This document shows, piece by piece, positions 28,411 to 34,392 of a stretch of DNA of 64,000 nucleotides. The notes beneath the pieces were generated by a model. That model was not told the origin of the DNA and searched no databases. It saw only the letters and a list, made by a program, of their open reading frames with translations. This stretch comes from Candidatus Altimarinota bacterium (lineage in GTDB: Bacteria > Patescibacteriota > Gracilibacteria > BD1-5 > UBA6164). The translations under genes and the position numbers were made by a program. Numbering within the stretch: position 1 is the first letter of the stretch; every line of letters starts with the position of its first letter. The DNA lies in assembly GCA_028697205.1 (NCBI GenBank), contig JAQVFO010000001.1, positions 195,086 to 259,085 on the forward strand, given 5' to 3'.

Positions 28411-29139
28411 TTATTTCATTAAAGAGGATTTATATTTTTTAGGATAATATGATTTTAATCTAATTATTTCTAAATTTTTATACTTTTCATTTTTTGATAA
28501 CAAAGATATAAATCAAGTCTGATCATATCAAAGGCAAACAATATTTGGGTTATATTTTTCAAAACATTCCAATGGATTTGTATTACTTCAAATCTCAACT
28601 ATATTAGATATTCATCACTTTATTACACTTTCTTTTCTTAATAGCTCATTATGTCTAGGAGCTTTTCACTTTATTTTTTCTACATTTTTATCAGTTGCAA
28701 TAATTGTAATTATTTCATCTCAATAAAAACTAGCCTGTTTCAAAAAACTTTTATGTCAAGGATGAAAATAATCAAAAGTACCAAAAGTAATAACTCTAAT
28801 CTTTTTATTTTTTGCATCAATTATATCGCTTGAAATTTGCTTTTTTAATTCATCTAAATTTTCAAACTTCTTATTATCTCTTATTTTTTTCAAAATAAAA
28901 ACTTCTATTTTTTTTCAGTAAATATCTTTATCAAAATTAAAAATATGTGATTCAAAAACTCATTTAGATTTTAAATATGCTCAAACTCAAAAATATTTTC
29001 TTCAGTTATATTTTATATTTATTTTATAAGTTCACTCACTTAAAAGTTTATTATCACAAGTTATATTTGCAGTTCTAAATCATAATTTTCTTCATAACTT
29101 ATTTCATTCAACAACAATTCATTTTAAAATTATAATCAT
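28411..29139 (-). CDS. Riboflavin kinase / TagD-like nucleotidyltransferase fusion
   Basis: The 242-residue protein has two domains. Residues 1-110 are a riboflavin kinase: GIVVEGNKLGRKLGFRTANI, the EGTYKINI strand, and FNFDKDIYGKKIEV. Residues 120-242 are a cytidylyltransferase-fold domain with VITFGTFDYFHPGHKSF, KAPRHNELLRKE and VCLGYDQTGF, closest to TagD and archaeal RibL FAD synthetases. Bacterial RibF has the opposite order, with the adenylyltransferase first. It overlaps ribH by 10 bases and probably turns riboflavin into FMN and FAD. Confidence 0.9.
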
Positions 29140-29585
29140 TTTTCTATTAATTCACTAAGTAAATTAAGTCAAGAAAGTGCGTAAACTGGTTTTATTCTTT
29201 GTTTTACTTGTTCTTCATTATTACATGTTAATAATCAAAAAATAATAGGAACATCATAGCTCATAGTTAAATCCATAATTCATCTTGAAGCTTCATTACA
29301 AACATAATCAAAATGAGGAGTATCTCATCTTATTACAACTCAAAGAGTAATTATTAAATCAAACTCTCAACTTTCAAGAATTTTTCTTGTCATTCATGGG
29401 ATTTCAAAAGCTCAAGGAACATAAAAACTAACTACATTTTCAAATCAATTATCATTTAAAAAAGCTATATTTATATCTTCTAGCTCTTTTGTGTATTCTC
29501 TATTAAATTCTCAAACAACAAAAGCAATATTGATATCAGTATCAATAAGTGAAATATCTTTTAGACTTGTTACAAAATTAGACAT
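29130..29585 (-). CDS. ribH: 6,7-dimethyl-8-ribityllumazine synthase
   Basis: The 151-residue protein has the normal RibH length. It contains NIAFVVGEFNREYT, VPGAFEIPGMTRKI, ITLGVVIRGDTPHFDYV with the catalytic histidine, and VPIIFGLLTCNNEEQ. It condenses 5-amino-6-ribitylaminouracil with dihydroxybutanone phosphate to give lumazine. It lies 27 bases after ribE in the same leftward unit. Neither ribBA nor ribD, which make its substrates, is in the window. Confidence 0.96.
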
Positions 29586-29612: not shown

Positions 29613-30185
29613 TTATAAACTTTTTATTTTATTAACATATTTTCAAAGCATATCAAATTCCAAATTAACAATATCTCATACTTTTAAGTCTCATAAATTA
29701 GTATGTTCTAAAGTATAGGGAATAAGTGATATACTAAAAAAATCATTTCATACATCAACTAAAGTTAAACTAGCACCATTTACAGCTATGCTTCACTTTT
29801 CAATTATTAAATTATTAAATTTATTATCAAATTTGATAAAAATTACTCTTGAATCATCACTTTTATTTTCGACCTTATTTACTATTCAAGTTGTATCTAT
29901 ATGTCATGTTACAAAGTGTCAATCAATTCTATCACCATATTTTACACATCTCTCGACATTAAAATAATCTCAAATTTTTTTGTTTCAAAAATTTGTTCTT
30001 TTTAAACTTTCTTCCATTGTAAAAAATGTATAGCTTTTTGAGTCAATTTTTGTTAGTGTCATACAAGCTCAATCATGTGCTATACTTTGTCATTCATTCA
30101 AATCAGAAAAAGTATTTTCAATAGTAAATTTTCAAGCATTAATACTTAAGATTTTTGATTTCTTTTCTATAATTCAACTAAACAT
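29613..30185 (-). CDS. ribE: Riboflavin synthase
   Basis: The 190-residue protein has the two lumazine-synthase-fed barrels of riboflavin synthase: MFSGIIEKKSKIL and SIAHDGACMTLT in the first, HFVTGHIDTTG between them, and IAVNGASLTLVD and PYTLEHTNLGDL in the second. It converts two lumazines to riboflavin. It is the first gene of a seven-gene leftward unit with ribH, the kinase fusion, rseP, an HD hydrolase, tgt and a small unknown. Confidence 0.96.
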
Positions 30186-30318: not shown

Positions 30319-33300
30319 ATGTCAGATATAAATTCTAATTGAACAATTCCAGATTCACCTGAAAATCAAAAAAAGTTAGAAAACGACTTCAACTCATTAT
30401 TAAAAAGAAAAAGCAAGAAACTAGCAAAAGATAAATTAAAAGAACAATGATTTTATAAAAATTTTTCATCTAATAAATACAAAAAATCAGACTTAAAAGA
30501 TGAACTATTAGAATGATTAAGTGAGTCAGAAAAAAATACTTATACGAAATTTGTTGAATCTATGAAAGAATCTGAGATTAATGAATTATTTGAGATATTT
30601 TCAAATGAAATATGATTACTATCATATCATATTGAAGCAAGAAAAAATGAACTAGTAGAATATTATTTAGATAAATATATTATATCTTCTGAAAATGAAA
30701 AGAAATTAAAACAACAAATTGAATTATTAGATGAAGATGAAATAAAAAATTTAATAAATTCTAATGAAATAAAAAAAGAAGAAATCATAAATAAGTTATT
30801 TTGAAAATGAAAAATAAACTTAAAGCCATCGGAAATAAAAAAAGAAATAAGAGAATTATTAGTTTGAGCAGATTTACCAGATGAAATGAAAAATAGGATA
30901 TTAAAAAAAACTAATTTAGCTGAACTTAATCCACTTTTTTCAACTATAAGATGATTAAATGATATTGATATTAGTATAGTTAATGATTTATTTCAATATG
31001 ATATTTTATCTCCTGAAGATAAAAGATATTTTTTAATTCATTATGTCCCTTTTGTTTCACTTTGAGATTTAAAAAAATCATGAATTATATCTGAGAATAA
31101 AGCAAGAGAAAAAGTAAAAAATGATTTAATAAATAGTTGAAAATCAAATGATGCTGATTATATAAGTGAAAATATTGATTTAGATAATTATGTTATTAAT
31201 TCAAAATCAATTATTGAGTGATTAAACTCTAATGATTTAGATAATTTTATAAAATACATTTGATTTGCACAAAAATTTGCATCAAGTTATAACGAAACTT
31301 TAAAAGAAATAAAAGATTGATATTTAAATAGTGTACAAAATATAGAATTGTTTAATGAAAAAGTTGAAAAAAATCAACAAATAAAAAGAAAAATAGTAAA
31401 TAAAGATTTTAAAAAAAGTTTTGTTGAATGATCTATATTAAAACTTACAGCTAAAAGTAATGATAGAAGTAATGAAGAAAGTTTTGTTTATTTAGAAATA
31501 GTTAAATTTCATGATAATTGAACCTTTACTTTTTTAAATAGAACAGATTCATTAAGTAACTATGATAGTTCAATAAATTTAGAAAAAAAAGAATGACATT
31601 ATTCTACATTATATGAAACTTTTTGAAAAAATGAAGTGAATGAAATTGAAGTTATTGAAAAAAATGAAATTATAAAAAAAATAAATTTATGAGAAATAAA
31701 TGAATCTGAAAATAGTCTTAATTTAAAATCAGATGAAGATTTTGATGAAATAAAAAACAAAAAAATAAATGATCTAAAAGATAAATTAAATGAATTTTCA
31801 AAATGAAAAACAATTGATGAATTAGAAAATAATAGTAATGTAAAATATTTAATTGAAGAATTAGAAGAACTTGAAAATATAAATTTAGATGATTTTAACT
31901 ATAATTATTTATTAGAGAAAATTAATTTGCTTGATAGTGAATGAAAAAAGTTTTGATTAGATAATTGAGTAAGCTTTAAGATTACAAAATCATGAATTGA
32001 ACAAGAATGAATGGTTTATACAATTACAAGTATAGATAGACAAAACAGATTAATTCATATAAAAAATGCTTTATGAGAGGATGATGAATGAACTTTTGAA
32101 GAATTTTATAAATTATTTAAAGATTATGATATAAAAAGATTCTCAAATAATGAAGATTATACAAAATTACCTGAGTTATTATCAAAAGACGATAAGATAT
32201 GAAAAATTTGGGATAATTTTGAAGTTAAAAATGATGAAATAATAAAAAAAGATAGTGAAACATGAATTTCATATGATTATTTAGTGGCAAATGATGATTG
32301 ATGAGATGAACTTATAAAAATTCATGAAGTAAATTGATGAAAAGTAAAAATAAGTTTTTGAAAAATTTTAGATCAAGAAGAAGTAAAAAAAGATGATTAT
32401 TGAAAAAATACAAAAAGTGAAAAAAAATGAGAAATATTTGAAACAGAAGAACAAACATATGAAGTTACAATATGATTTTTAGAGGATTATATTAAATCAA
32501 AAAAACTTGAACCTAGATCATTTGATGAATCAAAAGATAAAAAAAATGCAAAACTTCCTCACTGAGTTGAAAATAGAAGAATTAGTTTAGTTAGTAAAAT
32601 TTTCGCTAATAAATCTTTGATTGAGGTTATTCAATGAATGAAAGTATGAGTTGATTCTATACAACATTACTTAAAAGAATCTCATGAAGAACATGCTAAT
32701 GCTATAGCATTAGCAGTTTATGGAAAATTTTTACCTATAGAGTTACAAAGTGATTTAAGAACAAGAGTAGAACAATGAGAAAAAAAACATATGGATGAAT
32801 ATATTTGAAAATTAAAGGCTGTCGATTCACCAATAGCTACTTGAATGATTGAAAAATGGTTGTTAATAAAAAATACACCTAGACATAAAGTCGAAGCTTG
32901 ACTTTTATTTATGATGGAAAGTTACTGAACTTTATATGCAAAAAAAATATATGAATACAAATGAAGATTTTTATGGTATGAAGCATTAGGATGACATATA
33001 TGAGATGATTTATATAAAGAAGTTGAATCAGATGCAAAAAAAGCTTGAATACAATTTAGTGAAGAAGAATTAGTTCATCAATTATTAAAAAGACAATGTA
33101 AACCTGAATGATTTCATCATATACATAGAAGAAGTAGAATTCATAAGGAATTTGAATGATCTTGGAAAGCATGAATGAAAAAAGATAAAGAAAAATGATT
33201 AGAAGATTCTAAATGAAAAAGAACAATAGATTGAAGAATAAAGTGATGAATTGATGAGTTATATTGATGAACATATCCTAATTCAATGTGATGGTTTGAA

Positions 33301-34392
33301 TGAGTAGTTTGAAAATGATGACCAATGCATAAAATGAATAAATTACCATTCATAATGTTATTTTCATGAATTGCATACAACTTTAATCAAAAAATGGCAG
33401 ATGAATTTAAAAATTCTATGAATGATTGAAGAAATATTCCAGCAGCAAGATTCATATCTCTTACATCTGATATTGATTTATTTAATCAAACTGTATTAGA
33501 ATTATCAAGTAGATTTAGAGATTTATACTGATCAAAAAATGAAAAATATAATTTAATGTATGACAGAGCTAAAAAAATATTTGATAATCAAAATCTAAGC
33601 AAAAAAAATGAAAAGAATCAAATAGAAGCTACTGAAAGTTTTTTTGATGATTACTGAGAAATTCTTACTAGATCTATGTATATGCTAAATACATGAAAAG
33701 ATGATGAATACAATTTAGCTAACAAATTAATATTTTTAGAAAAAGATTCAAATCCAATTTTTAAAAAATACTATGCTAAGTTTAGAGCATACATAGATCA
33801 AGATGCAAATTTTAAAGTAAAAGATTATATGACTGATGCTTTTAAGTTTGCATGAACTTCTTGATATGACTTATATAAATTTACAAGAGATACTTTATCA
33901 TATCGTACGTGAGGTTGATTTTTTCAAGCTGAAATATGACCTGATGCATTAAAAGAAGTAGAAAATGAATTTTTATCTATCCCTAAAAGAACATATTCTG
34001 ATGATAAAAAAGAAGATGAACAAATAAAAAGAAAAATATTAAAAGAAGATTTAAGAGAATTTATTGCATGAATTTTGACTAATCATTCATGAGATGAAAG
34101 AGCTCTAGAATCTATAAATAAACCTTGAAGTCATTTTTCAAAAATATTTGATAGATATTGAATTGAATTAACAGAATTTAATAAAAATAACATTAGTGAT
34201 ACAAAACTATTATCTTGAGATGAAGATGTTGCTGAAAGAATTCTGGATAAATATGTTAGTAATGCATTTAATGGAACAGATCATAGTAAAAATAGAGGTG
34301 TATCATGAATTATAAATTTTACTTGATGATCTATCGCTGAAGCATTATCCAAACCAGTATTAAATGATGAAACATTCGAAAGAGTTGCTTAG
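30319..34392 (+). CDS. Very large soluble protein of unknown function (1357 residues)
   Basis: There is no signal peptide and no membrane segment. Residues 1-250 are charged helix with repeated short leucine/lysine motifs (KKSDLKDELLEG, PSEIKKEIRELL). Residues 350-730 alternate beta-like and helical stretches rich in Glu, Asp, Lys and Asn. From about 745 the character changes: LPHGVENRRISLV, ESHEEHANAIALAVYGKF, then a Gly-, Trp- and His-rich core with FHHIHRRSR near 933 and DELYGGTYPNSMGWFEG. The last 300 residues are helical again. I recognise no domain. It stands alone between a divergent riboflavin operon and a convergent pilin gene. Confidence 0.85.

Follow-up and report, generated by a model that had tools for sequence, protein, structure and literature searches.

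A putative FAD synthetase joining a bacterial-type riboflavin kinase to an archaeal-type nucleotidyltransferase in a gracilibacterium that reads TGA as glycine

RibF is the standard bacterial route to FAD. One gene in the 64,000-nucleotide stretch of Candidatus Altimarinota bacterium DNA analysed here (the window) raises the question of whether a comparable enzyme has been built a second time from other parts: its product carries a kinase domain first and a nucleotidyltransferase domain second, the opposite of the order in RibF. An earlier note, made from the letters of this DNA, had claimed this order, had pointed to HPGH and GYDQ motifs in a second domain described as TagD/RibL-type, and had read the protein as an independently assembled FMN/FAD enzyme. 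Pfam bears out the order, with Flavokinase at residues 5–111 followed by CTP_transf_like at residues 117–207 (E 5.7e-8, over the cut-off), and both motifs are present (Table 1). The wider reading is likewise supported by the genome, tree, profile and motif tests reported below, and the fusion is very likely a bifunctional FAD synthetase, riboflavin kinase (RFK) followed by RibL, assembled independently of RibF. A tiny, parasite-like bacterium with TGA as glycine thus appears, as far as sequence can tell, to obtain FMN and FAD from a single protein, part bacterial kinase and part archaeal-type enzyme.

Read with translation table 11, the interval 28411–29139 is interrupted by stops; read with table 25, it is a single minus-strand open reading frame of 242 aa that fills these coordinates exactly and includes 18 TGA codons translated as glycine. 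NCBI code 25 (TGA = Gly) is in use among Gracilibacteria and Absconditabacteria. Alignment with homologues places TGA codons of the kinase at conserved glycine columns (G12, G16, G20, G36 and G51), and those of the second domain include G128 of HPGH and G204 of GYDQ, both of which occupy columns that do not vary when archaeal RibL is aligned. This placement on conserved columns therefore supports the glycine assignment for the fusion gene, and the neighbouring ribH, ribE, M50-protease and tgt-like genes also read normally under table 25. The fusion gene lies directly downstream of ribE and ribH. An Rfam scan around the rib operon recovered no FMN riboswitch or other element, its sole match being a sub-threshold, chance snoRNA-like hit. 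Divergent from the operon, an ORF of 1357 aa (window positions 30319–34392, plus strand) has no Pfam match.

Table 1 Features of the fusion gene and its operon, in window coordinates
Feature	Position	Strand	Remarks
RFK-RibL fusion gene (proposed bifunctional riboflavin kinase / FMN adenylyltransferase)	28411..29139	-	242 aa, table 25
Riboflavin kinase domain, bacterial RibF-type, PF01687	28807..29127	-	Residues 5-111; Pfam Flavokinase E 2.8e-27
Kinase T-A-N motif, residues 23-25	29065..29073	-	T and N invariant in aligned RFKs
Kinase Glu63, taken as equivalent of CaFADS E268	28951..28953	-	Invariant in alignment; PMC2573891
RibL-type nucleotidyltransferase domain	28414..28800	-	Residues 114-242; Pfam, PDB match, tree, predicted fold
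HPGH motif, residues 126-129	28753..28764	-	Gly is a TGA codon
GYDQ motif, residues 204-207	28519..28530	-	Gly is a TGA codon; marks the RibL group among the sequences compared
K-S-S motif, residues 237-239	28423..28431	-	Putative equivalent, by alignment, of the SS/ISSTxxR phosphate-binding segment
ribH, 6,7-dimethyl-8-ribityllumazine synthase	29130..29585	-	3' end shares 10 bases with fusion gene
ribE, riboflavin synthase, two lumazine-binding domains	29613..30185	-	Just upstream of ribH

The kinase half scores 95.9 bits with PF01687 against a cut-off of 19.6, and the RibF models TIGR00083 and NF004162 find their best match to the fusion through their own C-terminal kinase half. Residues T23, N25, E63, R87 and D105 are invariant among the aligned RFK rows, while the P of the usual PTAN motif is R in this kinase. 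Residues 5–111 accordingly combine the features by which we recognised a riboflavin kinase, namely a Flavokinase domain with (P)TAN and the catalytic Glu. At about residues 50–62 of this protein and its relatives, the kinases of the order have no G-x-x-P-T loop; in CaFADS this loop lines the flavin pocket (PMC2573891). In the predicted structure, model confidence for the kinase half is low.

The genome, 99.1% complete, was searched for other FAD synthetases with PF06574, PF01687 and CTP_transf_like. A separate canonical RibF, which the earlier note had named as an observation that would count against its reading, was looked for and not found: PF06574 (FAD_syn) has 0 matches at E<=10 elsewhere in the genome, and PF01687 matches at the fusion locus alone, with no second RFK. 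On the fusion protein itself PF06574 reaches 22.2 bits against a cut-off of 27, over 27 residues only. Two further CTP_transf_like genes resemble NadD (NaMN) and NMN adenylyltransferase, both under the curated equivalog cut-offs. The riboflavin pathway of this genome is incomplete, with ribE, ribH and the fusion present and RibB (0 matches), RibA and RibD_C missing; RibA and RibD_C are each absent in 39 of 40 family genomes. Import of riboflavin-pathway intermediates is possible and may be the source of 5-amino-6-ribitylaminouracil and dihydroxybutanone phosphate.

The second domain belongs with the archaeal FAD synthase RibL and not with TagD, HldE or the FMN adenylyltransferase (FMNAT) of RibF. 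Its best PDB sequence match is 3glv, to which a second profile comparison, with 3glv itself as a profile row, also pointed. Structure prediction and a tree, both proposed as checks in the earlier note, agree on this placement. The predicted model of the domain (pLDDT mostly 92–98 across residues 111–230) is closest in the PDB to 3glv (Z 18.9, 1.8 A over 120 residues), followed by TarD/TagD at 17.1/16.1; the 50 structural matches listed include no RibF chain, which is not evidence of absence. In the trees, built on 135 columns and weakly resolved within the RibL group, archaeal RibL and the Patescibacterial domains are together, split from TagD, HldE and ECT (SH-aLRT 95); inside this group archaeal RibL is one clade (SH-aLRT 97), and the Patescibacterial sequences are not nested within it. 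The archaeal sequences come from a genome scan led by 3glv, itself archaeal (Thermoplasma volcanium), which kept 80 archaeal loci and is silent on bacteria outside Patescibacteria. Because 3glv falls inside the clade of these loci, its PDB title, "lipopolysaccharide core biosynthesis protein", is probably a misannotation, and 3glv is probably a FAD synthase.

Profiles and motifs point the same way. The archaeal RibL profile outscores the TagD profile for 17 of 17 fusions (median 102 versus 43 bits); the window's own domain gives 83 versus 43 bits, the former only modestly higher than the 59–72 bits of the archaeal RibL profile on TagD/HldE/ECT-type references. G-x-[DN]-Q is present in 122/122 RibL-group rows and in 0/13 references (11 other nucleotidyltransferases and two RibF), a descriptive count, since resemblance to the query or to 3glv was the basis for choosing the rows. 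With HxGH, G-x-[DN]-Q, the fold and a placement apart from TagD/HldE/ECT, the domain carries the features by which RibL was recognised here. Of the label TagD/RibL-type, the RibL part stood on tree, profile, motif and fold, and the TagD part fell on score and tree.

The superfamily is functionally diverse, however, and the Pfam assignment of the second domain is just CTP_transf_like; TIGR02199 (HldE domain) and TIGR01518 (TagD) give sub-threshold matches to it, and the TarD/TagD structures are nearly as close to the model as 3glv. A TagD/HldE-like enzyme with a non-flavin acceptor, joined to the kinase accidentally or for some other pathway, could account for these observations, but we consider it improbable: the model scores are far below the curated cut-offs (28.8 versus 165.4 bits for TagD, 40.3 versus 181.5 bits for HldE), the TagD, HldE and ECT sequences lie outside the RibL group, and none of the 13 references has G-x-D-Q. 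The rib operon setting, the fusion to an RFK and the lack of any other recognised FMNAT all indicate FMN as the acceptor.

A search of the class recovered the full-length fusion in 16 genomes of three families, the relatives showing 42–53% identity: this genome, 13 of the same family, one of a sister family (G186, fusion L007) and one of a third family (G106). The third family, with fusions L020 and L052, contributes the latter as an additional, divergent fusion (G065). The G186 fusion is possibly mis-binned, as its contig is only 6 kb long. Across these genomes the fusion mostly adjoins ribH and ribE. In the rest of the class, kinase and nucleotidyltransferase are for the most part encoded by individual ORFs, each about 120–160 aa long. 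A scan of IMG/VR with the fusion found no relative. Besides the fusion operon, three genomes (G152, G014 and G024) have second lumazine synthase genes, and G152 has in addition another RFK that stands alone (L062). In the class, RFK domains are also fused to other partners, these being judged by eye from their sequences: a 5-formyltetrahydrofolate cyclo-ligase-like protein (L040, L056, L075), an RsuA-type pseudouridine synthase (L045), an O-antigen-ligase-like membrane protein (L054, L072, L073), an EamA-like transporter (L079) and a SIS-like protein (L031).

PF06574 exceeds its cut-off in 10/10 bacterial controls but in just two of the 192 class genomes; across the phylum the count is 1 of 287, and 0 among the 255 good genomes of that set. 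Of the two class matches, one is a 27.1-bit hit at a RibL-type locus and the other, in G107, is a real full-length RibF; G107 has an RFK and no RibL-type match. Among the class genomes without the fusion, 99 have both RFK and a RibL-type gene, 13 RFK only, 18 a RibL-type gene only and 45 neither, with eight ambiguous genomes entered as lacking the RibL-type gene and shared ancestry ignored. The near-loss of PF06574, this strong co-occurrence and the gene content of G107 are as predicted if RibL replaced the FMNAT of RibF. The pairing is not strict, given the 18 genomes with a RibL-type gene and no RFK. Two genomes of the same family, G174 and G178, keep the RibL-type gene without an RFK; in each it is a stand-alone gene (L023 and L043, respectively), ribH is also missing, and inspection by eye of the sequence upstream showed no RFK remnant. 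These organisms are possibly FMN importers that keep just the last step.

In the trees the fusion kinases fall, with modest support, together with kinases from the same order that stand alone or have another fusion partner (L031, L045, L050); among the second domains, three stand-alone ones form a group with 15 of those that are fused. In the sister-family genome G059, the RFK adjoins ribH and the RibL-type gene is on a different contig. These two groupings and the layout in G059 therefore suggest that a rib operon ending in RFK came first. The RibL-type gene would then have been joined to the 3' end of RFK in this operon, so that the fusion would represent a union of two already stand-alone genes, both widespread among Patescibacteria, and not a permutation of RibF. 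In the phylum Patescibacteria as a whole, an archaeal-type domain appears to have taken over from the usual bacterial FAD-making one. It is probable that in nearly all Patescibacteria (CPR) a RibL-type enzyme, known otherwise in archaea, replaced the FMNAT of RibF and left the bacterial flavokinase as a protein of its own, and that in this lineage the two were re-joined in reversed order as a second-built bifunctional FAD synthetase.

In the proposed reaction sequence, the N-terminal flavokinase would phosphorylate riboflavin to FMN, the riboflavin itself coming from the synthase whose gene lies just upstream, and the C-terminal RibL-type domain would transfer AMP from ATP onto FMN, yielding FAD and pyrophosphate. 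The archaeal-type homologue of Entamoeba, EhFADS, has FAD synthase activity and is ATP-specific, and M. jannaschii RibL uses ATP and also accepts CTP and GTP, though less than ATP (PMC11423594), so that FMN adenylyltransferase activity in this family is biochemically established elsewhere. For the fusion protein itself we infer activity of both domains, FMN as acceptor and ATP as donor; any coupling between the domains would be a further inferred property.

Reduced organisms of this kind are presumed dependent on others, and RFK, RibH or both domains are missing from some relatives. It could be that the kinase alone is active, with a degenerate or regulatory second domain, and that FAD comes from the host or an unrecognised enzyme. 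We regard this as very unlikely: HxGH, GxDQ and the SS motif are retained both by the fusions and by those stand-alone relatives that were examined, as would be expected of a nucleotidyltransferase site under constraint. An artefactual fusion, produced by assembly or by the choice of genetic code (the ORF being open solely when TGA encodes a residue), has a negligible probability: the TGA codons and flanking genes behave as described above, full-length homologues of the fusion in 15 other genomes contradict it, and recurrence in 16 genomes in all, plus the divergent L052, excludes chance or misassembly.

The reading of the protein as an RFK-RibL synthetase bears on how flavin metabolism is scored in this phylum. 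Riboflavin, FMN and FAD pathways have been reported for freshwater Gracilibacteria with the enzyme type unnamed (PMC9166423), and our literature search, to which subscription papers were mostly out of reach, found neither a RibL-type enzyme in CPR nor an RFK-nucleotidyltransferase fusion. If the replacement is true, a large bacterial phylum runs on a different adenylyltransferase for FAD, and its genomes have probably been scored as lacking FAD synthesis or the gene annotated as a generic cytidylyltransferase. RibF has been proposed as an antibacterial target (PMC7012052). The fusion acts as a Rosetta-stone link: through it, the stand-alone RibL-type genes would be connected with flavin metabolism and their function made directly testable. 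Probably more important than the fusion itself is the apparent takeover of the RibF FMNAT role by a RibL-type enzyme across the phylum.

Among known systems, TagD/TarD glycerol-3-phosphate cytidylyltransferase shares its superfamily and fold with the second domain (Z 16–17), but its R-T-x-x-I-S-T-T segment is missing from the fusion protein. Assignment to TagD was rejected on the TIGR01518 score given above and the position outside the TagD branch, as was assignment to HldE/RfaE domain II on the TIGR02199 score and its tree placement. Archaeal RibL (M. jannaschii) and EhFADS fall in the same sequence group as the second domain and share its predicted fold, along with the motifs G-T/V-F-D-x-x-H-x-G-H, G-x-[DN]-Q and SS near the C-terminus; archaeal RibL is stand-alone, whereas here it follows a bacterial kinase. 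The fusion protein has neither of the two C-terminal cysteines known from M. jannaschii RibL, which are not universal: EhFADS (PMC11423594) and most of the Thermoplasmata sequences listed lack them as well. RibF (type I FADS; CaFADS of Corynebacterium ammoniagenes and the Thermotoga maritima enzyme 1mrz) has a homologous RFK domain and, like the fusion as proposed, places two consecutive reactions on one chain with a nucleotidyltransferase of the HxGH superfamily. Unlike RibF, the fusion has the reversed order, an adenylyltransferase domain that is not PF06574 and scores as a RibL relative, and a shorter kinase without the G-x-x-P-T loop. Assignment of the whole protein to RibF was rejected at 99.5 bits against the TIGR00083 equivalog cut-off of 184.35, its first domain not being PF06574. 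The fusion is therefore RibF-like in its proposed function, yet falls outside RibF by the identity and order of its predicted domains.
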